Positions 1,070 to 14,577 of a stretch of DNA of 54,187 bases are shown one piece after another. The stretch covers positions 1 through 54,187 of the forward strand of contig JAHECZ010000017.1 of assembly GCA_024641475.1 (NCBI GenBank), read 5' to 3'. The stretch's first letter is position 1; every line of letters starts with the position of its first letter. The stretch comes from Gammaproteobacteria bacterium (GTDB taxonomy: Bacteria; Pseudomonadota; Gammaproteobacteria; UBA6429; Thiohalophilaceae). The notes under the pieces were generated by a model. The model was not told the DNA's origin. It saw nothing but the letters and a program-made list of their open reading frames with translations, and did not search any database. The translations under genes and the position numbers were made by a program.

Positions 1070-1492
1070 TTAATTACTGGACCAGCACGTCGCTACTGTT
1101 GCTGCCGTACCGGTCATCCCTTTAACACCGGTATTTGTTAACGTCAACGTACCGCAGTCTGTGTCTTTGGTTTGTTCGCCCGCAGGCACAAGATTAATTG
1201 TGTAAGTGGTTCCGGGGTTGGGTATCACAACATTCGCGGTGTAATAGCGCAAGCCACCACTGATTCCGGCACTGATGGCATAGCCTGTATAAGTCATGTT
1301 GTCAGAAAACCACGTTGTCATTTCATGTTCGATGCGTGTAGCTGCGGAAACCGCTTCACCGCGGAATTGTCGTCTCACCTGCTCATTATATAGAGGCCAG
1401 GCAATCGCGGCGATGATACCGATGATAGCGGTGACAACCATGGCTTCGATTAATGTAAAACCAGCGGTTTTGTGCCTGTGTTGGTGTAACAT
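1070..1492 (-). CDS. pilE: Type IV pilin-like protein PilE (last gene of minor-pilin operon A)
   Basis: This 140-residue minor pilin has a class III prepilin signal. A short basic leader ends in HKTAG, and the mature part starts FTLIEAMVVTAIIG with F at +1 and E at +5. A roughly 20-residue hydrophobic helix follows. Two late cysteines (TDCGTLTL and ATCWSSN) form the C-terminal disulfide loop usual for pilins. PilE-type minor pilins are cut by PilD and join the PilV/W/X/Y1 priming complex at the pilus tip. The start is supported by AGGGAG about 8 bases upstream. A strong hairpin separates it from pilY1, so its expression may be partly uncoupled from the rest of the operon. Confidence 0.88.
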   Translation of the reverse strand: MLHQHRHKTAGFTLIEAMVVTAIIGIIAAIAWPLYNEQVRRQFRGEAVSAATRIEHEMTTWFSDNMTYTGYAISAGISGGLRYYTANVVIPNPGTTYTINLVPAGEQTKDTDCGTLTLTNTGVKGMTGTAATVATCWSSN

Positions 1493-1538
1493 CTGTCTTA
1501 CTCCCTTTTATATTTATCCACTTCAAACCTAAAATAAT

Positions 1539-1564
1539 GGATACGGGCAAGACTGCCCGTATCC
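1539..1564 (-). terminator. Intra-operon hairpin between pilY1 (A) and pilE (A)
   Basis: The 11-bp perfect stem GGATACGGGCA pairs with TGCCCGTATCC around a four-base AGAC loop. In the minus direction it is followed by ATTATTTT. It lies after the pilY1 stop and before the pilE ribosome site. This fits a leaky terminator or an mRNA-stabilising hairpin. Confidence 0.55.
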
Positions 1565-1578
1565 GCATGTCGTTATCT

Positions 1579-4500
1579 TTATTCGTCCTGACGCCAGTAG
1601 GTTTTTTCCATTTGTAAATTCAGATCAACCGTGGTGAGTTTTTCCGGGCCAACCAATACGATCGGCTTACTGCCATCGGACGGGAACAACACGGTCGGTT
1701 CGGGTGGAATACCGCCACGAGTCATGACTTGATAACGATCCGCCGTCGAACCATCAACCCCATCGGCTTGTAAATTGTATGCCGCGGTGGCGTTGCCCAG
1801 GTTCAGCGCATAGGTTTTCGCTGTGCCCTGACTTGGCGCGCACGCTGTAGCCTGACTGCTGGCAACCGGTGTAAATGTCGTGAACAGCACTTTATTTTCT
1901 GCTGTGACGGACGTGGCCAGAACCTTTTCACCTTCGTAGGTGCCGTCGGTTTTCACCAGACGGATGTACCAACCCTTGGCGGCATTTAGTGCGCTAGTTG
2001 CTGTTGCCAGCGCTGCGCCTGTTTGTGTACCAATATCATTAGCCGTGGCATCATACAGCTTGGCTTCGGTGTAAGCCGGATAGCTGGCCGGTACATTATA
2101 GACATCAGAGTCACGAATCATATAGAAACGGTCCTGTGTCGTCATGGTCAACGGGTGAGCACGATAACCTGAACCAATCGACACCGTGAGTTCATAACCG
2201 GTGGCGCCTTTGATTAAAGCCACGTCCGGTGCGTAGTAGAAGCGATGATTAAGCGCCTCGGTGGCGCCACTCAAGGAGGCAAACACGCCGCCGGTGGCCA
2301 GATTTCCTGCACCCGTATTCGTCATACTCAGATCAATACGCCAGATGCGTCCGCCCATATCACCAACATAAAGTCGATCCGCATAACCATCAACGTTGAT
2401 GTCGATCACTTTGATATCGGCGGGAATACTATTCGTCATGCTGGGTAATACCAGGTTAGCTGTTGCAACCGATGAGGCCCACCATAAACGTGCGCCAGTA
2501 GAAGCATCCACGATATAAATGGCACGACCAATCGAATCATCCGAGGGTGCGCCGACGGTGTCTTGATGCGTATCGTAGCCACCAGCAAAGATCAGTACAT
2601 TTTTATCGACACCATTAAGTTTGATTTTCGCAACGACTGGGCGAGACCAGGTTTGACCCAATTCAGCAAAATCACCAGCACCGCCATCGATTTGCCACAA
2701 TAATTTCGGCGCGCTGCGGTTGGTGACGTCGAAGGCATAGTAATGGTTACCGCCACGACGCATGCCAGTGTATAGATAGGCAAATTCACCGGTATCGAGG
2801 ACATTGGATGTGTTATATAGCAAACCATTATTGTTATCATCTTTATGCCAGATACTGATGGGTCCATCCATGCCATACGGATGCTTTGAGGTTTCTGAGT
2901 TTTCAAAGCGCGTATCCAGATTTGTTAGCAATTCCTTGGGGATGAACGCAAAGGTCTCTGTGCCGGTTTTTGCATTGAAGGCATGCAAAAAGCCGTCGTT
3001 GCTGCCGGTGAATAATGTGATATCCGGATTGGCATCCGTACCACCATAGGTCAATAACACCGGTTTACTGTGCAAGATATCACCGAAAGCGCGACGCGCA
3101 TCGGTCTTGGAACCATCGCCATTATCATCCAGTACATCGACGCCACGTGCCCATTGAATCAATTCGGTGCGATAGGAACTTGGCGTGACAGGCGAGACAT
3201 AGTTAACAGCTTGATCCGAAATGCCCAAAGCGACGTAGTCCAGTGCAGTATTATCTTCATGGAATTTATTCGCCGTATCGGCCAGATTGACGTTGTTGGG
3301 TGCGGCTGTATCAAGATACGTATATAGATTGCGTGTCGTGGTGATTAATCCCGCTGCGCCACCTTTGGCAACTTCATCGCCATCGGGTGCATCTGCATCC
3401 AGTGTCCAGAAACTGCGCGAAGTACCGGAGAAATAACCGGTATTCACATCTACCGCCGCAACCCCGTTGGCATCGACCACGATGTTATCCGGGCTGTTAA
3501 TTTTATAGTGCTTGATGTTACCGGGCCAGGTTGGACGACCTTGCGGTTTGAATACACCAAAATACAATTCATCACGGTGGGTCAAACGGTTAAAGTCATT
3601 TACCGTCACCGCAGGTGCGATAAAAGTCGTACTGGTTGCCAGAATATCTGTCACGATGGTCGTAAAGGCGGTTGCCAGTTCGGTTGCTTCAGTGGCTTCA
3701 TAGTAATGATCACTGCCACCACCATTTTTCGCCGCATTTTTTAATAAAGTAGGATCAGTGACACCACCACCAAAGTCGATGGCATAGAATTCCGCATTCT
3801 GCACATTATTCAATGTGCTGCTCATGTCGGACTTATACATCCACAGTGCCAGTTCATCCAGACAGTTGCCACTGCAAGTGCTGCTGCCGGTAATTGATTT
3901 GAAGCTCGGCAGTGCGGCAATTTTAGCATCCGCATCGGTATCACTGGTGGGCTCACCGTCTGTTAACAGCACCGTGAAATTCTTTTGGCACTGATATTCA
4001 ATCGGTGTTTTATATTTAGTGGTATCACTGCTCAGTAATACGGTAGAGACATTGTGTGCCGGGCTGGATTTATTGCCATAGTCGGTACTGAGGCCACGCC
4101 AGTATAACTGTGCTTCATACAAGGTTTCTGCCAGGGGCGTGCCACCATTGGCATTTAAGGAATTCACCGAAGTGATAAATGTTGGCCGGTTGGTGTCGTT
4201 CAGTTCCTGCATCGGTTCGAGGAAATAACCGCCCTGGGCATCATCACTGTATCGCATCAAGCCAGCATTAATACCAGACGTGCTATTTACTAAGGCAGTA
4301 AATGCATCTTTGACTGTTTGAATTCGAGATTTTGATGTGCCACCACTGGGGCTGTGATACCAATTCAGGTAATTGGCGGTATACAAAGTATAGGTGGCAC
4401 CGGTGGATTTCCAGCTAATCGCATTGGTACTGTTGGCGCGCCAAGGGCCACCATTCGTGGCATTGGCGGGATAGGGTTTGGTGGTGTCGTTACCATCGCC

Positions 4501-5028
4501 GTACTTGCTGTAATCGGCGCTACACTCAACGTTCGAGCTATGATCGCTATTCGACAAAGAAACCCAGGAACTGGTATCTGCACCGGTTTTTGAGTTCGTT
4601 GACGCTTTGTAATAGGCGAGTGTGCCGATATAGCTACCTGTGCCGGATGCAGATAAGGCATTTATAGAGTCATGGCATTTATTTGCCGCTGCATCAATAT
4701 AATCTGTCGATGTTGTACAGTCTGGCGGTGGTGTGCCCTTGCTCTTTTTCTTGCCAGAACTGCCGGTTTTCCAGAAGATTCTGCCACTGGCGCAATTCCC
4801 GATGACTGGGTAGGTGGTAGCAGGATCATAGGTGCTGTTGGTCGCAACGAGGGTACCCATACTGCCCGAGGTGTCGATGATAAATAATACGTTGGGGCGC
4901 ACGACACTCGACAAATTACCACCGACATACACTTCGGTATCATCGGCCAGTACTGGTGTAATAGGGAAGGCCACGTAGAGTGCTGTAACCAGCATCAGAG
5001 TCAATTTGTTGTTCAATGGCGTTTTCAT
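1579..5028 (-). CDS. pilY1: PilY1-type tip adhesin with intact VWA metal site (operon A)
   Basis: PilY1 is a large secreted protein at the type IV pilus tip that primes assembly and mediates adhesion and surface sensing. This 1149-residue copy has a Sec signal peptide ending near residue 28 (PVLA-DDTEVYV). A von Willebrand A domain follows with a full MIDAS: D52-T-S-G-S56, then TPLAETLYEA and T-D357-G-E-P. The C-terminal half is the PilY1 beta-propeller, with GMRRGGNHYYAFD and an EF-hand-like loop DINVDGYAD at residues 876-884, the site of the known calcium loop in Pseudomonas PilY1. A second acidic loop, DDNGDGSKTD, lies near residues 634-643. It follows a small secreted gene and precedes pilE. 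Family assignment is secure; the ligand is unknown. Confidence 0.93.
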   Translation of the reverse strand: MKTPLNNKLTLMLVTALYVAFPITPVLADDTEVYVGGNLSSVVRPNVLFIIDTSGSMGTLVATNSTYDPATTYPVIGNCASGRIFWKTGSSGKKKSKGTPPPDCTTSTDYIDAAANKCHDSINALSASGTGSYIGTLAYYKASTNSKTGADTSSWVSLSNSDHSSNVECSADYSKYGDGNDTTKPYPANATNGGPWRANSTNAISWKSTGATYTLYTANYLNWYHSPSGGTSKSRIQTVKDAFTALVNSTSGINAGLMRYSDDAQGGYFLEPMQELNDTNRPTFITSVNSLNANGGTPLAETLYEAQLYWRGLSTDYGNKSSPAHNVSTVLLSSDTTKYKTPIEYQCQKNFTVLLTDGEPTSDTDADAKIAALPSFKSITGSSTCSGNCLDELALWMYKSDMSSTLNNVQNAEFYAIDFGGGVTDPTLLKNAAKNGGGSDHYYEATEATELATAFTTIVTDILATSTTFIAPAVTVNDFNRLTHRDELYFGVFKPQGRPTWPGNIKHYKINSPDNIVVDANGVAAVDVNTGYFSGTSRSFWTLDADAPDGDEVAKGGAAGLITTTRNLYTYLDTAAPNNVNLADTANKFHEDNTALDYVALGISDQAVNYVSPVTPSSYRTELIQWARGVDVLDDNGDGSKTDARRAFGDILHSKPVLLTYGGTDANPDITLFTGSNDGFLHAFNAKTGTETFAFIPKELLTNLDTRFENSETSKHPYGMDGPISIWHKDDNNNGLLYNTSNVLDTGEFAYLYTGMRRGGNHYYAFDVTNRSAPKLLWQIDGGAGDFAELGQTWSRPVVAKIKLNGVDKNVLIFAGGYDTHQDTVGAPSDDSIGRAIYIVDASTGARLWWASSVATANLVLPSMTNSIPADIKVIDINVDGYADRLYVGDMGGRIWRIDLSMTNTGAGNLATGGVFASLSGATEALNHRFYYAPDVALIKGATGYELTVSIGSGYRAHPLTMTTQDRFYMIRDSDVYNVPASYPAYTEAKLYDATANDIGTQTGAALATATSALNAAKGWYIRLVKTDGTYEGEKVLATSVTAENKVLFTTFTPVASSQATACAPSQGTAKTYALNLGNATAAYNLQADGVDGSTADRYQVMTRGGIPPEPTVLFPSDGSKPIVLVGPEKLTTVDLNLQMEKTYWRQDE

Positions 5029-5097
5029 GTGTAACTCCCGTTGCGTACTACATTGAATTCAGTGTGTGTCATATTGGTTTTAATCTCGTTAATGCCT

Positions 5098-5418
5098 TTA
5101 CCAAATAATCCGGCTGGCATTTAACGTTTTTGGATCATAAATGACGGTAATCACCCCGGTGTGCATTGTCGGTACGCTAGTCACAGGGACCTGCACGTTG
5201 TTATGCAATGCCTGGGTGGTCGCGGTGATATTCAAGCGTACTTCCGGGCAGGATTTACACTCGCGCGCAACAATAATTCCGTTGCCGGTGGCGTTGAGTA
5301 TTTGTAATTTCTCAGCTTCGACCGCTTTCTCAAGCGCTTTATATTTGCCGTGACAGAGCCCGTTATTGCTGATGACCAGCAATCCCAGCAGAAGAGTTGT
5401 ATTCAGCATGGTTTTCAT
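5098..5418 (-). CDS. Small secreted protein with a CxxC pair, inside pilus operon A
   Basis: I do not recognise this 106-residue protein. It has a signal peptide of about 20-23 residues (MLNTTLLLGLLVISNNGLCHG), then a short charged helix (KALEKAVEAEKLQ). A beta-rich remainder carries a lone CKSC motif near residues 54-57. GGAG stands 8 bases before the ATG, so translation is likely. It lies between pilX and pilY1, whereas Pseudomonas has a small gene, pilY2, after pilY1. The second operon here has no counterpart. The CxxC pair could bind metal, form a disulfide or assist folding of the cysteine-rich PilY1; this is inference from position only. Confidence 0.7.
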   Translation of the reverse strand: MKTMLNTTLLLGLLVISNNGLCHGKYKALEKAVEAEKLQILNATGNGIIVARECKSCPEVRLNITATTQALHNNVQVPVTSVPTMHTGVITVIYDPKTLNASRIIW

Positions 5419-5490
5419 ATATTCGCTCCGTATCGGTCGTAGGTGACGTTAATCTGTTTAGTAAGTCAGACAAACATGTGTAATTTAATT

Positions 5491-5943
5491 TCAACCTGCA
5501 CCTGGTGCCAAACGTTTCACGCCTTGCGAGAGGCGCGAACGTGCACCGGTACCGGAACTGGTTGAGGTTGCTTCAATGGTGAAGGGAATAGCCTGGAAGG
5601 AACCCAGACTGTAACCTTCCATAATTTGATTGCTGCCACTTTCTACAATGGTTTTGGTTGTGGCCGTGTGAGTTCCCAAGGTGTAAGAGTTGTTTGTGCC
5701 AGCAGGAGCATTCACCGCGCTGGTAAATGTTGCCGTGTTCACTATAGTTTCCGCAATGGCCGATTCGGCGGTTTGGAAAGTCCCCATCTGACTTTGCGCA
5801 TTGGATGCCATGCGCTCCTCCAGACTGGAAGTAGTCATGCTGCTGACACCCAGTACAGTAAGTAGAAACATAAAGATCAATACAACGATTAAAGCCATGC
5901 CGGTTTGGCGTTGCGGCAGTTGTTGTGATGTTAAAATTAGCAT
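5491..5943 (-). CDS. pilX: Type IV pilus minor pilin PilX (operon A)
   Basis: This 150-residue protein has a PilX N-terminus: a polar leader ending RQTG, then MALIVVLIFMFLLTVLGVSSM. It lacks the Glu at +5, as PilX-type pilins typically do. The segment SLEERMASNAQSQMGTFQTAESA matches the conserved PilX helix after the membrane anchor. PilX is a core component of the minor-pilin tip complex with PilV, PilW, PilE and PilY1. It sits 29 bases after pilW. The C-terminal part is low-complexity, Ser/Thr-rich and not diagnostic. Confidence rests on the N-terminal signature and gene order. Confidence 0.85.
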   Translation of the reverse strand: MLILTSQQLPQRQTGMALIVVLIFMFLLTVLGVSSMTTSSLEERMASNAQSQMGTFQTAESAIAETIVNTATFTSAVNAPAGTNNSYTLGTHTATTKTIVESGSNQIMEGYSLGSFQAIPFTIEATSTSSGTGARSRLSQGVKRLAPGAG

Positions 5944-5972
5944 TGCAATCTCCAGTTGAATTCGGCGTCATT

Positions 5973-6704
5973 CTATAAACGGTTGCGCAACACCACGGTG
6001 TTGACGTAGACATTGTGAATACGGTTATCAGTTACCGCCACACCTTGATCAAGAACTTGATATCCTTTGGAAACAGTCGTGCTGGCAGCTTCGGTAGTGG
6101 TTTTGCTTAACAGGCCGATACGCACGCTGACAATTTTGTCGCGTTCGGTGGCGAGAATGCTGGACCACTTTACATATTTGTTTGCCAGGCCATCAGCAGG
6201 TGTGTCTGTATCGAGCCCATAAAGAATCTGCATATTGAGAATGCCTTCAGCAATAACATCAGGGGTTGCTCCACCATTACCTAGACAGACGAGATTGTTG
6301 CTGGCATCAACAGAATATTTATTTACCGCACAATTCTTGCTGCCGCAGGAATTGGCGGGCGTGGGTTGTCCAAGGCAATCGGTGGCAGATTCAAATTGCA
6401 ATGAAATGGCATCACTGGCATTGCCACCGCCGTCATAGGTGGAAGTGGCAGCAACAACGATTGGTTCTGACAGGTTGACATTATTTTTTGGATAACCAGC
6501 CATACGTAAATCGTGTAGTAATATATCCATGGAGAAGCGCACATTCTCCTGGGCGCGTGACACGCCATCTTGCAATGAATAACTGCGCTTGCTGGTAACA
6601 TAGATCGATACCACGCCGAGAATCAGGATGAGTGAGATGACCATCGAGACCATCAGTTCGATTAAAGAGACACCTGTCTGTCGTGTTAAAGTAAATTGTG
6701 TCAT
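5973..6704 (-). CDS. pilW: Type IV pilus minor pilin PilW (operon A)
   Basis: This 243-residue protein has the prepilin signal RQTG followed by VSLIELMVSMVISLILILGVVSIYV, with E at +5. The PilW-type region SYSLQDGVSRAQENVRFSMDILLHDLRMAGY follows it; ENxRFA/S...DLRxAGY is characteristic of PilW. The C-terminal segment, with GLDTDTPADG followed by SVRIGLLSK, is also shared with the second PilW in this window. PilW bridges PilV and PilX in the tip complex. It starts only two bases after the pilV stop, so translation is probably coupled. Confidence 0.88.
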   Translation of the reverse strand: MTQFTLTRQTGVSLIELMVSMVISLILILGVVSIYVTSKRSYSLQDGVSRAQENVRFSMDILLHDLRMAGYPKNNVNLSEPIVVAATSTYDGGGNASDAISLQFESATDCLGQPTPANSCGSKNCAVNKYSVDASNNLVCLGNGGATPDVIAEGILNMQILYGLDTDTPADGLANKYVKWSSILATERDKIVSVRIGLLSKTTTEAASTTVSKGYQVLDQGVAVTDNRIHNVYVNTVVLRNRL

Positions 6705-6706
6705 GG

Positions 6707-7255
6707 TTACGGCCTGAAGGTTAATGACATGGTTTTATTCGCATTGCCAAATTCTGTGTTATTGACCCAGGTGAGTGTTACCGTACGATAGGCACTTGTG
6801 CAGGCAGCAAGGACACCCGCCGCATCAGTACATGTTACACCTAGTGATCCTGTTGGCAGCCGATTCTTGGCCTGACAGTAGACCAGTGCCGCGTCAAAAG
6901 TGGCCATTTGAGTGGGCGTACAAGCGCTCGCACTAGTTAAACTGCTATCTTCGCAAAAAGGCGCTGGCGTTGCGTTGCAGTTTATCGTTCCGTAGTTGAC
7001 GGTAGCGTAGTCACCTGCGGTAGTGGCAGTAATATTGGAACGCATCCGTTCAATAATATCGTTGGCGATTAATGTTGCCTGGCTGCGCTTCTCGGCATTC
7101 CCAGTTTCACGCAGACCAGTGACCTGTAATGCTGCAAGCCCTAACATACCGATAGAAAACACCATCAACGCAATCATGACTTCTAATAATGTGGCGCCAT
7201 GACTGGCTCGTAATGATTGCAGCATACGGAACTCGCTTGTCAGGAAGGGGTGCAT
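6707..7255 (-). CDS. pilV: Type IV pilus minor pilin PilV (operon A)
   Basis: The prepilin signal SHG is followed by ATLLEVMIALMVFSIGMLGLA, with E at +5 and the PilV-typical FSIGMLGLAALQ. The residues after it (AEKRSQATLIANDIIERMRSN) match the family helix. I chose the ATG at 7255 because GGAG lies 7 bases upstream; this gives 182 residues, a 19-residue leader and a 16-base overlap with fimT. The ATG at 7225 would give a more usual 9-residue leader and cannot be excluded. The frame extends further to 7345, but that part reads as non-family sequence inside fimT. PilV belongs to the pilus-tip priming complex. Confidence 0.85.
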   Translation of the reverse strand: MHPFLTSEFRMLQSLRASHGATLLEVMIALMVFSIGMLGLAALQVTGLRETGNAEKRSQATLIANDIIERMRSNITATTAGDYATVNYGTINCNATPAPFCEDSSLTSASACTPTQMATFDAALVYCQAKNRLPTGSLGVTCTDAAGVLAACTSAYRTVTLTWVNNTEFGNANKTMSLTFRP

Positions 7256-7773
7256 GTGCCGACTCCGGTGGTGTCTAACTTGGGCCGACCAATGCGGCTG
7301 ATGGTGACTTTGCGTGCGGTGCCAGTTGTGCCATCGGTGTCGCACAATACAAATTCACCCTGTGCACTACCAAAACCATTGGAGGTATAAGTGATAAAAT
7401 TCGCGAGGCTGGCGGATGACTGTAATGGATCACTAAATGCACCGTATACACGTAGAATTTCTTCGCCACCATCCACTTGTGCAGGCGAATCATTGTCGGT
7501 ATTGATGAAGACGATCCAGCCAACACTCCATGTTCCTGCTGTTGCTGTACAGGAAGCGCCATTTTCGCTACGGCATACCGAGATAGTCGTGCGACGTTTT
7601 ATCGCTTCGCTGCGCGCAAGATTTATCGCGCCGACAAAGGAATTGGTTTCGCTGATCAACCGATTGCTTTTGACATAACTGTTAAAAGCAGGTACTGCGG
7701 CTACGGCCAGAATACCAAAAACGGCGAGTGTCACCATGAGTTCAACTAATGTAAAACCAGAATATGTTTTCAT
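7240..7773 (-). CDS. fimT: FimT/GspH-type minor pilin (first gene of operon A)
   Basis: This 177-residue pseudopilin has the leader MKTYSG and mature FTLVELMVTLAVFGILAVAAVPAF, with E at +5. The FimT/GspH signature NRLISETNSFVGAINLARSEAIKRR and ISVCRS follow, then GWIVFIN. FimT/FimU proteins prime pilus assembly, and in some competent species FimT binds DNA. The ATG at 7773 is preferred because it gives a normal short leader; the open frame reaches 7812. It is the first gene of operon A and lies downstream of two CRP-like palindromes. Whether it acts as FimT or FimU cannot be decided from sequence. Confidence 0.88.
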   Translation of the reverse strand: MKTYSGFTLVELMVTLAVFGILAVAAVPAFNSYVKSNRLISETNSFVGAINLARSEAIKRRTTISVCRSENGASCTATAGTWSVGWIVFINTDNDSPAQVDGGEEILRVYGAFSDPLQSSASLANFITYTSNGFGSAQGEFVLCDTDGTTGTARKVTISRIGRPKLDTTGVGTCTPS

Positions 7774-7886
7774 ATTGGTATTTTCGGCGTGATCGCGAAA
7801 TTTGTTAACCATTAAGCGACTGGTGGTTAGGTAATGCGGATGAGAGGAATATTATTGTGGTAGGGAAAATATGATGAAAGTCTAAT

Positions 7887-7979: not shown

Positions 7980-8435
7980 TTAATTCCAGCACGACACGCC
8001 TTTAGGTCCAGTCGCACTTTTTACACCAAGCATACTTAATGTGAGATTGATGCAGTCAGTGTCGTTTGTCGCCTGTGCGTTTACAGCAGTTGCGGTTAAT
8101 GTATAGCAGCTGGCCAGCGTGCAGCCACCTGGATTGCTAACGGATACGGTATACACCGCATCGCCTCCAGCGGTTTCTTCGCCGGCTTTGTTCAGTGATG
8201 GAGATGCAGCGCCATATCCCAGCTTGGATAAATCTGTTGTATACGATTTGTTGTTGATATAGAAGTTTTCCATTTTAGATCGCACGGTTTGCAAGGCGGT
8301 CTTGCCCGTGGTGCGTGATGCACTGGTCGTGTAGCGTGAATAGGAGGGGATTGCGATCGCAGATAATATCCCGACAATCGCCACCACGGTAATTAATTCG
8401 ATTAACGTTAATCCTGTTTGTTTTTTCATGTACAC
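7980..8435 (-). CDS. pilE: Type IV pilin-like protein PilE (last gene of operon B)
   Basis: This 151-residue minor pilin has leader MYMKKQTG, mature LTLIELITVVAIVGILSAIAIPSY (Leu rather than Phe at +1, Glu at +5) and a C-terminal cysteine pair (TDCINLTL, VSCWN). The C-terminal pattern DC-x-LTL...GVK..TG is shared with the PilE at 1070-1492, which supports paralogy. AGGAG lies 7 bases before a GTG at 8435 but 13 bases before the ATG at 8429, so the GTG start is favoured. It follows pilY1 (B) by 23 bases. Confidence 0.87.
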   Translation of the reverse strand: MYMKKQTGLTLIELITVVAIVGILSAIAIPSYSRYTTSASRTTGKTALQTVRSKMENFYINNKSYTTDLSKLGYGAASPSLNKAGEETAGGDAVYTVSVSNPGGCTLASCYTLTATAVNAQATNDTDCINLTLSMLGVKSATGPKGVSCWN

Positions 8436-8458: not shown

Positions 8459-11400
8459 TTAATCCTTGCGCTGATACCAGAAAGTACGCCAGCGGGTTTT
8501 AACTTCCACAGGCATCAATCCACCGGGTGGCACGATGATATTCTTGCCGCCCTTGCTGATAACGATGACATCGGCGGGTATGCCTGTGCCGGTATAGCGG
8601 AAACGATCACTGGCCTGCATTTCGATTACATCACCGTTAGCATTGGTGACGGCATTGCTTAAATCAAAATTACACTTGGCAGAGGCGTCCTGTAAATTCA
8701 GACAATATAACAGACCAGAACCTTCACTCGGACCGCAGGTAACACTATTGGTTGTTTGCGGCGGTTCGTAGGAAGTAAAGTAGATTGCCCCCGCCAGGGT
8801 AACGGGAGCGGATAAGGCCTTTTCACCTGTTGCCTGATTGAGTAGAATTTTCCAACCTGCACTGCTGAGGTTGTTGATCTGCGTCGCTGTGCATGTGGCG
8901 CCAACCTGTTGGAAACAGTTATCACTCAAATCTGCCAAATTGTTAAAGACAATCAGGCCAGCGGGTGGTGTGCCAGAAGTGGTGTTGCGATCCTTAATCA
9001 TAAAGAACCAATTTTCCGGAATATTATTGCCGATGCTTTTGTCGAGTGGATTAGGGCGATCACCAGTACCGCCGATGATGGCATCGAACGAACCAACACT
9101 GTCACGACTTTGCACGACATCGACTGCGTGGAAAACGCGACGGTCGTTGGATTTGGAATTGTTGGCGTGATGGCCTACCGATGCAAATTTGGTCACTTTC
9201 CAGGTAGTGCGATTGGTGCCGGCCATGTCGATACGCCAGATACGTCCGCCGGTATCGCCGACATAGAGTCGATCCGTTACACCATCCGCATCGCTATCCA
9301 TCGGTGTGACTTCAGAGGCGATACTGTCGACCATTTCTGAATGATTGTATTCTGTTGCGCTGATGTTGGCAGAACTGGCACCATACACACCTTTCCAGAT
9401 CAGTGCGCCAGTGGCGGCGTTAACAATGAACACTCCACGGCCCATGCCGTCATCCGATCCGGGAGAGTTATTGCGCGTATCTTTGTTGGTGTCATAACCG
9501 CCGGCGAATACCAGTGCCGGTACTTTGACATTGCTGTCATAACTGACTTTGATCACTTTTGGCGTGGAGAAAGTCAATCCGATTTCTGAAAAACCTGCTG
9601 TGCTATTGCTGATATGCCATAACATCTTGGGTGAATCAGGCGTGGTGACATCCAACGCATAATAATGTCGTCCACCGCGACGCAGGCCAAAGAATAAATA
9701 GGCTTTGTCACCATCAGCGGCTTTGATACTGCCATCTTTGTTTGCGTCATAGGTATATACGGTAGATTCACCGTCAACACCATAGGGATGCAGCGGTGAT
9801 CCGGGCGCATTATCCATCAGGCGTTTCTGAATATTCAATGTCCAGCGTGGCATAAAGCCCCACACCTCTGCGCCGCTTTGCGCACCACTGGTTGTGGTAT
9901 TGCGGAACATGTGTATGTAACCATCATTACCACCCATGATGATGCGAATATCCGGGTTAGTCGTACTATAACCGGTGGTGGCACCATAATTAATGGCCAG
10001 TGGCCGTGAGTGAATTGGATCACCGAGTAACCAGGGGCGGGTGTCCGTGGTGCTACCATTGCCATTTTGATCATTCACGTCGATACCACGCGAACACTTG
10101 AGTGTATTAATTGCGATGGTTTGTTCGGCAGCGGTGGCGGCTGCATAGGTCAATGCAGTTGACCATGCGACAGTATTAAACGTAGTGCCGCTAGAATAGA
10201 CGCCATTAGCATTGAGATCAGACCAGAAAGTGCCGGCGTTGGCAGCGGTGGCATCCAATGCAACCAGCGTAGTCGGTGTGCCATTCACATAGGTGCCAGG
10301 CTCGGTGAATAATTGGCGTGCACCGGCATCGGCATTGTTAATGCCGGGACTACCGGAGAGAAAACCATTGATGCGTTGTCCCGCCCCACCGCGCGCAACG
10401 CTTCGACCATCAAGGCCGGTGATCTCGCCGTCTGTTGTGTTGGCGGCTACCACATCCGCACCGGCAGGATTGGTCCAGAATGACAATGCGTTGTAGTTTA
10501 TGCGGCTATCGGATGCGAAGGCGGGTATACCATTGGCATCGCCGATAAAATAATTATTATTGGCATCCAGTTGGATCTTGAGCTTTTTCAAATTGCCGAC
10601 CCATTGTGGTTTGCCGTTTTTTTCCGCCTGGAATAAGGCAATATAAACGTCATCGAGGAATTCAGTACGGTTGAACACATTGACTGGAACCGAGGCTGCC
10701 ACGAAGGTGGTACTCACACTGAGAATCTGATTAAAGATACTCTTCAGATTGGCCACCATAGATGCCGGGTCGCTACCCAGCGTGATTGCCGTGCCGGTGC
10801 CGCCCGCGTTGGCATAACCGTTGGTGGTGTTGTTAGGTGAATCAACGACAAAATATGACGTGACGTTCTGTACGCCGTTAACATCGGGTGCGGTACCGTA
10901 AGTACCATTGGCAATGTCGTTGTTGTGCAACCAGGCGAGCACGGTATTCAGGTTGTTGGTGTTGCCCTGCAATAACAAACTATTCATGCCACCGTTGCTC
11001 TTGGTGGCGCTGATGGCACTGTTCGAGTCATCGTCCTGCTGCGATACTTGATCCATCAAGTTGATGGTGAAAACTTTTACGCAATCAGCCGTGGCTGCGA
11101 TGGGGGTGACATAATCAGTGCCGCTTTCAATAGAGGTATCCCAGGCAATGTTGCTGTGGGGAGGTGACTCGGCTGTTGGAGTACCGTTTAAATTGTTGGT
11201 GGCATTGGTATTGCCAAAATCTTTATAACCCAGATGGCCATTATAAATACCCTGGCCAGATAAATAACGGAATAACTCAAAATAAATTTCCTTACCCTGG
11301 TATTTGTGGCTTTCATTGCCACCAGGAATGGGAATATTGGATAAAATGGTATGGAAGGCGGCTTTGTTGCCGTTGGCGTCGGTAGCGTCGATGGATTTGA

Positions 11401-11878
11401 ACCCGGACAGGATATACGCGCCATTACTGCAACTATTTACCGTGGGGCCACAGGTATTGTTGCCGCTGCAGTTATTGTCATGGCTCATCATCAGGCCAAT
11501 TTTCACGCCGCTCAGTGGCTCCAGAACCTGCTTGAGCGCAGCGCGTAATAATTCAAAATAGACAACTTTGCCATCGCTTAAATCAGCCGCGGTAAAATAG
11601 GATACAAAATTAGGATCAGACCAGCCACATGCGGTAGCAACGGTTTGCCGATCTGTAGCGTTCGTCGGATCCAACGCAGGGACGGTTGGCAAACCATTAC
11701 ACTTAATGCTGCCCAAATTAGGCCGCCAATCCAATACAAACATCACCATCGGTTCACTGGTGGCACTTAGTGCGTTGGAAACATAGATATCCGTATCATC
11801 AGCTTGCACAAACACCGGCGAGAGCAATATTACCCCAAGCATGGTGTATTTGATGAATTGTATGAATGGATTTTTCAT
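8459..11878 (-). CDS. pilY1: PilY1-type tip protein with degenerate VWA metal site (operon B)
   Basis: This 1139-residue PilY1 paralogue has a signal peptide ending near residue 26 (PVFVQA-DDTDIYV). The N-terminal half aligns in position with a VWA fold (SEPMVMFVLD50, VKIGLMMSHD). The MIDAS is lost, however: D50 is followed by WRPN instead of TSGS, and TINLMDQVS stands where TDGEP is expected. The C-terminal propeller is well kept, with GLRRGGRHYYALD and a calcium-type loop DSDADGVTD at residues 861-869 followed by GDTGGRIWRID. A cysteine-rich segment near residues 135-155 (NNCSGNNTCG) is absent from the other copy. It probably supports pilus priming but binds a different ligand or none through the VWA part. 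Confidence 0.9.
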   Translation of the reverse strand: MKNPFIQFIKYTMLGVILLSPVFVQADDTDIYVSNALSATSEPMVMFVLDWRPNLGSIKCNGLPTVPALDPTNATDRQTVATACGWSDPNFVSYFTAADLSDGKVVYFELLRAALKQVLEPLSGVKIGLMMSHDNNCSGNNTCGPTVNSCSNGAYILSGFKSIDATDANGNKAAFHTILSNIPIPGGNESHKYQGKEIYFELFRYLSGQGIYNGHLGYKDFGNTNATNNLNGTPTAESPPHSNIAWDTSIESGTDYVTPIAATADCVKVFTINLMDQVSQQDDDSNSAISATKSNGGMNSLLLQGNTNNLNTVLAWLHNNDIANGTYGTAPDVNGVQNVTSYFVVDSPNNTTNGYANAGGTGTAITLGSDPASMVANLKSIFNQILSVSTTFVAASVPVNVFNRTEFLDDVYIALFQAEKNGKPQWVGNLKKLKIQLDANNNYFIGDANGIPAFASDSRINYNALSFWTNPAGADVVAANTTDGEITGLDGRSVARGGAGQRINGFLSGSPGINNADAGARQLFTEPGTYVNGTPTTLVALDATAANAGTFWSDLNANGVYSSGTTFNTVAWSTALTYAAATAAEQTIAINTLKCSRGIDVNDQNGNGSTTDTRPWLLGDPIHSRPLAINYGATTGYSTTNPDIRIIMGGNDGYIHMFRNTTTSGAQSGAEVWGFMPRWTLNIQKRLMDNAPGSPLHPYGVDGESTVYTYDANKDGSIKAADGDKAYLFFGLRRGGRHYYALDVTTPDSPKMLWHISNSTAGFSEIGLTFSTPKVIKVSYDSNVKVPALVFAGGYDTNKDTRNNSPGSDDGMGRGVFIVNAATGALIWKGVYGASSANISATEYNHSEMVDSIASEVTPMDSDADGVTDRLYVGDTGGRIWRIDMAGTNRTTWKVTKFASVGHHANNSKSNDRRVFHAVDVVQSRDSVGSFDAIIGGTGDRPNPLDKSIGNNIPENWFFMIKDRNTTSGTPPAGLIVFNNLADLSDNCFQQVGATCTATQINNLSSAGWKILLNQATGEKALSAPVTLAGAIYFTSYEPPQTTNSVTCGPSEGSGLLYCLNLQDASAKCNFDLSNAVTNANGDVIEMQASDRFRYTGTGIPADVIVISKGGKNIIVPPGGLMPVEVKTRWRTFWYQRKD

Positions 11879-11889
11879 ATGCGGACCTA

Positions 11890-12381
11890 CTAGTTGTCTT
11901 GACCGGATTTGGGTACTAATACGACATAACCTTGTACGATTTCAGCCTTACCCTGGTTGTTGCTGGTTTCATCGTAAGCACCAGATACTTCAAACAGAGT
12001 TGATTGGAAATATTTGCTACTGGATTCGGCAACGCGCGGCATGGTGTAGTTGGTATTGGCCAGCTCAACCTTGGCTTGTATGCTGGTGCTGCTGGTGAAT
12101 ATGGAGTCGGTGAGGGTAATGGTATTCAGGTTGCAGCCGGATACATTGGCATTGCAAACAGTGTAACCGGCGTTGCCCTGAATTACGAAAGGACCGTTTT
12201 GTTCCATGACCGCATCCACAACGGATTGGGCGCGCTCATGGGCGTCCATCATCGCTTCATCGTTACCGACCACCTGAAGTTGCGAGGTAGTGGAGCTCAT
12301 TGCGGCAATCGATACAATGGTGAGTGCGGCCAATAGTACCAGCGATGTAACCAGTGCGGCGCCTTTGTTGTTTGAGTGCAT
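11890..12381 (-). CDS. pilX: Type IV pilus minor pilin PilX (operon B)
   Basis: This 163-residue protein has the short leader MHSNNKG followed by AALVTSLVLLAALTIVSIAAMSS, again without Glu at +5. The next segment, TSQLQVVGNDEAMMDAHERAQSVVDAVMEQNG, matches the PilX helix (N-E-x-M...A-Q-x-A/V). It lies between pilW and pilY1, with gaps of 17 and 11 bases. In the tip complex PilX links pilins to PilY1. The C-terminal region differs from the operon A PilX, so the two complexes may not be interchangeable. Confidence 0.84.
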   Translation of the reverse strand: MHSNNKGAALVTSLVLLAALTIVSIAAMSSTTSQLQVVGNDEAMMDAHERAQSVVDAVMEQNGPFVIQGNAGYTVCNANVSGCNLNTITLTDSIFTSSTSIQAKVELANTNYTMPRVAESSSKYFQSTLFEVSGAYDETSNNQGKAEIVQGYVVLVPKSGQDN

Positions 12382-12398: not shown

Positions 12399-13406
12399 TT
12401 ACATGCCAATCATGTTGGCACGGTTTTTAATCAAGACAGTGGTGCTGTACAGACGTCGGTAGTAATTGTCATTCATTGTGAAGGTGTCACTTCCCAAGGT
12501 GTACGTCTTGGCATTGGGGAAGGCTTTATCCTCACGGCGAGCACGTGTTAACACATGGATACGCGCTGACACAGCCTTGTCTAATTGTGCCTGGGTAGGA
12601 TTGTCGACGAACTGATTGGCAACGCCATCGGGCGTGGCGTCAGTGTCAATGCCGTATTCAACATGGAAACGCTCAATGCCTTCTGCCAAACACACAGTCG
12701 CCATGGTTGGCTGTGGTGTACCACCGCTGGTGACGGTTAAATATTTCTTGCATAAGGTTGGTATACCGTCGCCATTGGTTTGTGCATAAGGGCGTATGAA
12801 ATATATGTTGACCAGGTAACGCCAGTCATCATATCCACTGGTTGGACAATTGCTGCCAGTCGGCGTAGCACTGCTGCCGCTGTTATAAAACCAGAAACAC
12901 CCGGCGGCCAAATCGCTGCGCAAGTAAACTGTATTATCGGATAATGCACCGGTTTCCTTTTCGCCGAAGACGCGTTTGGTTACCAGCACATCCGTGCCTG
13001 CAACAAATTCACTGGATGCAACGCAGGTATGATCCGTCGTAATTGTGCTCGCCGTTGGTTGGTAATTGGATTGCATTACATTATACGTGGTGAGATTGTA
13101 AACCCAGTTGGTGTCCGAGGATTTGCCGCAATCCGTCGCCAGCGAAAGTGTTGCGTTCTGTACGATCTTGTCCAGTGAGATGACGCCACCAAAATATCCC
13201 AGGCTCTGCAGGTCAGTGGCAATTTGATGCATCGCGTAGCGGCCATTCTCCATTACTTCACCGATGCGTTCACTTTGTACATGGCTCTCACGTGTGCTGG
13301 AATAAATGTTGACGACCATCAGCAGTGAAACCAGCCCGATGACGAGTGATACCATCACTTCGACCAGACTGAAGCCGCGGGTTGTGTGATAGTTAAGTGT
13401 CATCAT
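12399..13406 (-). CDS. pilW: Type IV pilus minor pilin PilW (operon B)
   Basis: This 335-residue protein has the prepilin signal TTRG followed by FSLVEVMVSLVIGLVSLLMVVNIY, with E at +5. The PilW core GEVMENGRYAMHQIATDLQSLGYFGG follows. It is about 90 residues longer than the operon A PilW. Near the C-terminus, VEYGIDTDATPDGVANQFVD and SARIHVLTRARRED match the same block of the other copy. The start overlaps the pilV stop by four bases (ATGA), indicating translational coupling. Confidence 0.88.
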   Translation of the reverse strand: MMTLNYHTTRGFSLVEVMVSLVIGLVSLLMVVNIYSSTRESHVQSERIGEVMENGRYAMHQIATDLQSLGYFGGVISLDKIVQNATLSLATDCGKSSDTNWVYNLTTYNVMQSNYQPTASTITTDHTCVASSEFVAGTDVLVTKRVFGEKETGALSDNTVYLRSDLAAGCFWFYNSGSSATPTGSNCPTSGYDDWRYLVNIYFIRPYAQTNGDGIPTLCKKYLTVTSGGTPQPTMATVCLAEGIERFHVEYGIDTDATPDGVANQFVDNPTQAQLDKAVSARIHVLTRARREDKAFPNAKTYTLGSDTFTMNDNYYRRLYSTTVLIKNRANMIGM

Positions 13407-13987
13407 GTGAATGAGTCGTTTGAAATATAGAAGTTGATGATAATTACGCGCCGAAATTCGTTATTGGTACCATACAGACCGCTGCTCTGTCCGCAGGTTG
13501 ATATTGAAGGATTCCCCATCGCCGTATTGCCACGCCAGGCGATTGCCACGGTGTATACGCCGGCCGCACCTGCGGCAGGGCCGCTGATACAGGCCTGCGG
13601 TTGCACCAGACCACCGGTATTGGCAGCGCCGGATGTCTCAGTCGTACCATCGAGCAATTGCTCCCATGACCACAAATCATAACTGGCTAATGCGGCCGTA
13701 GTGCAGCTCGTGGTTTTACAATTGGTAGTGGGGGTGGCAACACTGGCGTTGCCAACCGTGTTGCCGATGTAGGCGGATAAGCCCATAGGGTTAGCGCGCA
13801 TCTTCCCCATCATTTCCTGGGCGAGTAATACTGCGGTGGAGCGTTGGATTGCTTCGTTGCCTGTTGATTTGGAAAATAATTCCATGCCGGCGATGCCTAG
13901 CATGCCGATGCTGATTACAAATAACGCAACCAACACTTCGATTAACGAAAAACCATTGCAGCGTGAATGATTGAATGAAATTGTCAT
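13403..13987 (-). CDS. pilV: Type IV pilus minor pilin PilV (operon B)
   Basis: This 194-residue protein has leader MTISFNHSRCNG, mature FSLIEVLVALFVISIGMLGIAGMELF (E at +5), then NEAIQRSTAVLLAQEMMGKMRANP. That pattern is the PilV signature. Several cysteines (NCKTTSC, QACISG, STCGQSS) suggest two disulfides in the globular domain. It overlaps fimT by ATGA upstream and pilW by ATGA downstream, so fimT, pilV and pilW form a tightly coupled trio. Its role is in the pilus-tip priming complex. Confidence 0.87.
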   Translation of the reverse strand: MTISFNHSRCNGFSLIEVLVALFVISIGMLGIAGMELFSKSTGNEAIQRSTAVLLAQEMMGKMRANPMGLSAYIGNTVGNASVATPTTNCKTTSCTTAALASYDLWSWEQLLDGTTETSGAANTGGLVQPQACISGPAAGAAGVYTVAIAWRGNTAMGNPSISTCGQSSGLYGTNNEFRRVIIINFYISNDSFT

Positions 13988-14577
13988 GACGGATTTGTGC
14001 AGCTTGTGATGTTGCCCACGCTGATTTGTGGTCGCCCGATCGCGATAATATTTATTTGTCGACCATACACGGTGTCATACGTGCCATTGCCATCGCGATC
14101 ATCACACATTGCCAGAATGCTCGGTACCGATGCGATGACCAGTGCGCCATCACTACCATATGTGATACGTGTACCGGCAGTACTGTTGCTGGTGATTTTG
14201 ACGGTATTCATACTGGGATTACTGATGCGTAATAACACATCGGTGCCATTGTCATATGATCCGGCGGTTCCGCCAACATCTGCAAACACGAACCAACCTG
14301 TGCTCCAGTTAGTGTTAGTACCACCACCACATACCGGAGGTGATGCAGTTGGATTGGCGCTGCGACAAACAACGACATTGATTTTGCGTTTCATGGCTTC
14401 AGAACGTGCATACATTAAATCTGAAAATAGTGTTGTACTGATGTTGCTTAACTGGCCATTGCGCACATATGAGATATATCCCGGTATCCCAACAGCAGTA
14501 AGGATGATAAAGATTGCTATAGCCGTGATGAGTTCGACCAATGTGAACCCGCGCGACTGTGTGGGTACTGTCTGCAT
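13984..14577 (-). CDS. fimT: FimT/GspH-type minor pilin (first gene of operon B)
   Basis: This 197-residue pseudopilin has leader MQTVPTQSRG and mature FTLVELITAIAIFIILTAVGIPGY, with E at +5. The FimT/GspH motif LSNISTTLFSDLMYARSEAMKRKINVVVCRS follows in order, then GWFVFADVGG. AAGGA lies 9 bases before the ATG. It heads operon B, and a consensus CRP-like site lies about 180 bases upstream. An open frame on the opposite strand (13997-14593) is a shadow. Assignment to FimT versus FimU is not resolved. Confidence 0.88.
   Translation of the reverse strand: MQTVPTQSRGFTLVELITAIAIFIILTAVGIPGYISYVRNGQLSNISTTLFSDLMYARSEAMKRKINVVVCRSANPTASPPVCGGGTNTNWSTGWFVFADVGGTAGSYDNGTDVLLRISNPSMNTVKITSNSTAGTRITYGSDGALVIASVPSILAMCDDRDGNGTYDTVYGRQINIIAIGRPQISVGNITSCTNPS

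Follow-up and report, generated by a model that had tools for sequence, protein, structure and literature searches.

A rare and conserved subfamily of predicted PilY1 pilus-tip proteins in which all three MIDAS loops are replaced

We analysed a stretch of 54,187 nucleotides (hereafter the window) from a gammaproteobacterium of the Thiohalophilaceae (contig JAHECZ010000017.1, assembly GCA_024641475.1). On its minus strand lie two minor-pilin operons in tandem, and each of them includes a PilY1 gene. The resulting A and B cassettes lie in tandem between positions 1070 and 14577, flanked by a peptidyl-prolyl isomerase-like gene and ligA. We use the term B-type for PilY1 proteins with the same loop replacement as PilY1-B, and for the loci that encode them.

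1070-7812, minus strand: operon A, encoding FimT, PilV, PilW, PilX, PilY1-A and a PilE-like protein
1579-5028, minus strand: PilY1-A, 1149 aa, with a full MIDAS (DTSGS, T297, TDG), used as the comparison protein
7980-8435, minus strand: PilE-like minor pilin of operon B, best six matches all in B-type loci
8459-11878, minus strand: PilY1-B, predicted tip protein of 1139 aa without MIDAS, assigned to the DYRPN/DWRPN subfamily (nine members) from its open reading frame, the PF05567 match and the subfamily comparison
11890-12381, minus strand: PilX-like minor pilin of operon B, matches in B-type loci only
12399-13406, minus strand: PilW-like minor pilin of operon B, best six matches all in B-type loci
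13403-13987, minus strand: PilV-like minor pilin of operon B, best six matches all in B-type loci
13984-14577, minus strand: FimT/GspH-like minor pilin of operon B, nearest to the G020 operon-B homologue (49%)

The minor pilins of the two operons have different closest relatives. All five of operon A were nearest to those of G001, a genome of the same genus (50-63%), and each of those of operon B was nearest to its counterpart in the B operon of G020, a genome of the same family. The PilV, PilW, PilX and PilE of operon B matched the B-type loci of distant genomes better than the adjoining A copies, a preference that was less clear-cut for FimT. Hence, each tip type has co-diverged with its own minor pilins. 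Since G001 encodes only the A cassette and G020 only the B cassette, with the same neighbours and near ligA, the two cassettes are swapped, or accumulate, at a single locus. The genome from which the window was taken encodes a third PilY1 on contig C125 (L051:59-3895), near ileS, with the motif DNTGSM.

The reading frame of PilY1-B is intact over its entire length. The beta-propeller profile of the family (PF05567, T4P_PilY1) matched residues 642-921 with 44.7 bits (Pfam cut-off 28.1), a calcium-binding loop is present and the gene lies in a minor-pilin operon, i.e., PilY1-B has the three features by which we recognise a PilY1. A search of the PDB with the full-length protein returned a single match, the C-terminal domain of PilY1 of Pseudomonas aeruginosa (3hx6), and the same search with a profile of the B-type proteins gave only a chance match. 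The first-pass annotation of this DNA had described C-terminal calcium loops in both PilY1 proteins, and we found them at residues 861-869 of PilY1-B (DSDADGVTD) and 876-884 of PilY1-A (DINVDGYAD).

In P. aeruginosa, the metal-binding site of the PilY1 VWA domain, the MIDAS, has been connected with adherence and with the sensing of surfaces. We read the correspondence of the MIDAS loops between PilY1-A and PilY1-B from an alignment of 25 PilY1 proteins. PilY1-A carries a long insert behind the first loop; the two proteins were compared using a fragment of PilY1-A that starts at the first helix, together with a comparison of profiles. The features relevant to this comparison are the following.

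4861-4875, minus strand: DTSGS, residues 52-56 of PilY1-A, MIDAS loop 1
9272-9298, minus strand: calcium loop of PilY1-B, of the DxDxDGxxD type, kept
11042-11068, minus strand: TINLMDQVS, residues 271-279 of PilY1-B, replacing the Asp loop of the MIDAS (PilY1-A: VLLTDGEPT)
11288-11311, minus strand: SHKYQGKE, residues 190-197 of PilY1-B, replacing the Thr loop of the MIDAS (PilY1-A: GGTPLAET)
11420-11470, minus strand: cysteine-rich insert, residues 137-153 of PilY1-B (C137, C143, C150), a putative hairpin after the second strand
11480-11482, minus strand: His133 of PilY1-B, invariant, at the predicted end of the second VWA-like strand
11717-11731, minus strand: DWRPN, residues 50-54 of PilY1-B, aligned with the MIDAS DxSxS

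The first loop reads LDWRPNL in PilY1-B and IDTSGSM in PilY1-A. The alignment thus bears out the earlier observation that PilY1-A has a full MIDAS (DTSGS and TDG) and PilY1-B has no canonical one (DWRPN and TINLMDQVS). The replacement is wider than first noted because the Thr loop differs as well, so that all three MIDAS motifs are replaced in PilY1-B. The protein also contains a chance DxSxS, DDSNS, at residues 283-287 (positions 11018-11032 of the window), and a simple text search for this motif would therefore score PilY1-B as MIDAS-positive. The cysteine-rich insert reported previously is real, and the cysteines extend beyond it: C60 and C84 lie behind the first loop, and C266 lies further downstream.

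We compared the N-termini of nine B-type and nine A-type proteins with hhalign. The alignment spanned 240 columns, starting at the first helix and reaching the FNR motif, with a probability of 99.8% and an E-value of 4.6e-28, and we infer that the VWA scaffold of the B-type is homologous to that of the A-type. The Pfam models of VWA domains matched all nine A-type proteins and none of the nine B-type ones. AlphaFold models of the N-terminus of PilY1-B, built from shallow alignments containing only the sequences of the window and of fetched related loci, had pLDDT values of 40.7 (three-row alignment) and 42.5 (four-row alignment), too poor for a fold search.

Using the N-terminus of PilY1-B as a query against its relatives, class samples and phylum samples, we identified eight further PilY1 proteins, from different genera, with the same loop replacement. 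They are encoded in G020 (locus L013, on the Ectothiorhodospiraceae MAG contig CAMYOL010000029), L014 (JADFKA010000057), G219, G174, G205, G338, G424 and G529, and their N-termini are 43-62% identical to that of PilY1-B. The DxSxS, T and D motifs of the MIDAS are all replaced in the nine B-type proteins; the 16 other proteins of the 25-protein alignment retain D-x-[ST]-G-S and TDG. The earlier proposal to survey homologues for the degenerate motif thus had a clear outcome: the first loop of every member reads D-[YW]-[RQ]-x-[NS]-L, the second SHxxQGKE with small variations, and the third M-[FD]-[QG]-[VT]-[ST]. The replacement of the first loop is not due to chance, since D50 and L55 occur in all nine proteins, and R52 and N54 in eight of the nine each. 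The mean majority fraction in the replaced loops was 0.72-0.81, compared with 0.60 for the whole B-type N-terminus. The subfamily is rare: we found it in five of 369 sampled genomes of the class, the window's own included, and any PilY1 in 207 of them. No B-type PilY1 was found in viral contigs or in plasmids.

Other positions of the N-terminus are equally characteristic. Five cysteines are common to the nine B-type proteins (the one in the window has six): a pair after loop one, a pair ending in CS[NG]G, and a fifth before loop three. D50, H133, H191, H215 and D220 are invariant among them. In a tree of the N-termini, the B-type and A-type separated with a support of 100/100, which is partly circular because the groups were defined by N-terminal loops. 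In the tree of the C-terminal part, the B-type proteins formed one side of a branch with 72/100. Judging from these comparisons, the lack of a MIDAS has been inherited within a subfamily of predicted tip proteins that is rare and well conserved.

We counted PilY1 genes in eight B-type genomes, i.e., those of all members except L014. Six (the window's own, G020, G205, G338, G424 and G529) encode more than one, and the B-type may therefore often not act alone. A single PilY1, of the B-type, was detected in G219 and in G174, the latter a single contig rated 100% complete; PilT and PilQ were matched in both genomes, and the count of one depends on the sensitivity of PF05567. These two cases make it unlikely that the B-type is a mere helper.

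We consider it probable, on the strength of these sequence data, that PilY1-B is a functional tip adhesin that works independently of a MIDAS and belongs to an alternative tip cassette; we would be less confident in any particular ligand. The second minor-pilin cassette is complete (FimT-PilV-PilW-PilX-PilY1-PilE), and PilY1-B would be its tip subunit. The N-terminal head of PilY1-B would retain the VWA scaffold, with the three MIDAS loops exchanged for other conserved loops. As in known PilY1 proteins, the C-terminal domain and the minor pilins may serve to prime a type IVa pilus and to cap it. The head may bind its target without the MIDAS metal, by means of the new loops and the disulfide-bearing hairpin. 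Under this model, the two cassettes, A and B, would offer a choice of tips, each suited to its own surfaces or ligands. That the two tips of this strain divide roles, as suggested earlier, is plausible given that each has a separate and full set of minor pilins. The MIDAS is reported to be essential for adhesion and twitching in PilC1 of Kingella (cited in PMC12607626), which speaks against a MIDAS-independent tip. A conserved subfamily that lacks the MIDAS, and that is at times the sole PilY1 detected, would make it possible to test directly which tip functions depend on the metal site, and the paired cassettes of this strain allow the comparison within a single background.

The replaced loops could also have rebuilt a metal site. 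D50, H133 and H191 may converge on the former MIDAS face and there bind another metal or ligand, which we regard as unlikely. These residues and H215 are invariant in the nine B-type proteins, there is no invariant histidine in the nine A-type N-termini, and D50 and H191 belong to the homologous counterparts of MIDAS loops 1 and 2. Against this, invariant histidines may be structural, and H133 is presumably on the same face, a placement that we take from the general topology of VWA domains. A related reading is that the face became a different conserved binding site, made up of Asp50, His133, His191 and the disulfide-bearing hairpin, on a type IVa pilus tip. Such a tip would adhere or sense independently of a MIDAS and, in some species, would have no other tip beside it; we regard this reading as unlikely as well.

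The first-pass annotation had also proposed a structural role for PilY1-B. Its head would then have no ligand, the protein would only prime assembly, and adhesion would come from PilY1-A. The parts that the two proteins share are the C-terminal half and the calcium loop, and their genes adjoin, which favours this proposal. We find it improbable given the genomes in which the B-type is the sole PilY1 detected beside PilT and PilQ, and given that the replaced loops are better conserved than the N-terminus as a whole. PilY1-B as a functional MIDAS-independent tip adhesin remains our preferred reading.

Local degeneration, in which drift would have removed the MIDAS from PilY1-B as a paralogue in decay, is very hard to reconcile with the data. 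In its favour, the MIDAS-bearing PilY1-A lies next to PilY1-B and a third PilY1 lies elsewhere in the genome. Yet, the same motif occurs in eight other genomes, the 1139-aa frame is open and the operon is intact, and the replacement is common to a clade (in both trees) and clearly constrained. A pseudogene was likewise rejected. A frameshift or an assembly error at the motif, named at the outset as a result that would overturn the observation, has a negligible probability since the frame is intact and DWRPN or DYRPN is found in frame in independent genomes. Of the initial reading, we thus retain the absence of a canonical MIDAS in PilY1-B, its conservation in PilY1-A and the possibility of another ligand, and we abandon the terms “lost” and “structural”.

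PilY1-B resembles PilY1 of P. aeruginosa and PilC1 of Kingella in its propeller with a calcium loop, its minor-pilin operon and its homologous N-terminal VWA-like domain; it differs from them in the replaced MIDAS motifs, the lack of a Pfam VWA match and a distinct cysteine pattern. Parallel tip cassettes in one genome, as in the window, are known in Xylella fastidiosa, where PilY1-1, -2 and -3 have paralogous minor-pilin sets and mutants with opposing phenotypes (PMC9956873). Insertions in the VWA domain change the function of ComC variants of Acinetobacter baumannii; these variants retain the MIDAS (PMC10374093), whereas PilY1-B has a replaced MIDAS and a cysteine-rich insert. A survey of myxobacteria describes PilY1 proteins without MIDAS scattered across lineages, very variable N-termini, and genomes that commonly encode several PilY1; in its accessible part there is no subfamily with the replacement loops of the B-type (PMC13190605). 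PilY1 proteins without MIDAS are thus already on record, and what is new here is one more variant rather than a new kind. In the literature that we searched, we found no description of a subfamily with a coordinated and conserved replacement of all three loops.

We also surveyed PilY1 in the class, using a non-random set of 80 loci (60 loci drawn from the best C-terminal relatives of PilY1-B and 20 from the best Pfam matches, B-type excluded). The DxSxS was kept in 72 of the 78 readable N-termini, four were of the GRDHKLYYEAYND type, and the two others read DNTAN and DNSAA. Hence, the absence of the MIDAS probably arose more than once. The four (L147, L150, L152 and L160) carry GRDHKLYYEAYNDASDLNGDG at the first loop, a stretch resembling a calcium loop that replaces DxSxS. 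L111 and L097, with DNTAN and DNSAA at MIDAS loop 1, have a VWA region without the TDG loop and seem to be further, separate losses. Finally, the PilY1-like protein encoded at L049:2955-7685 is 1577 aa long, and repeated inserts separate its MIDAS loop from the remaining domain.
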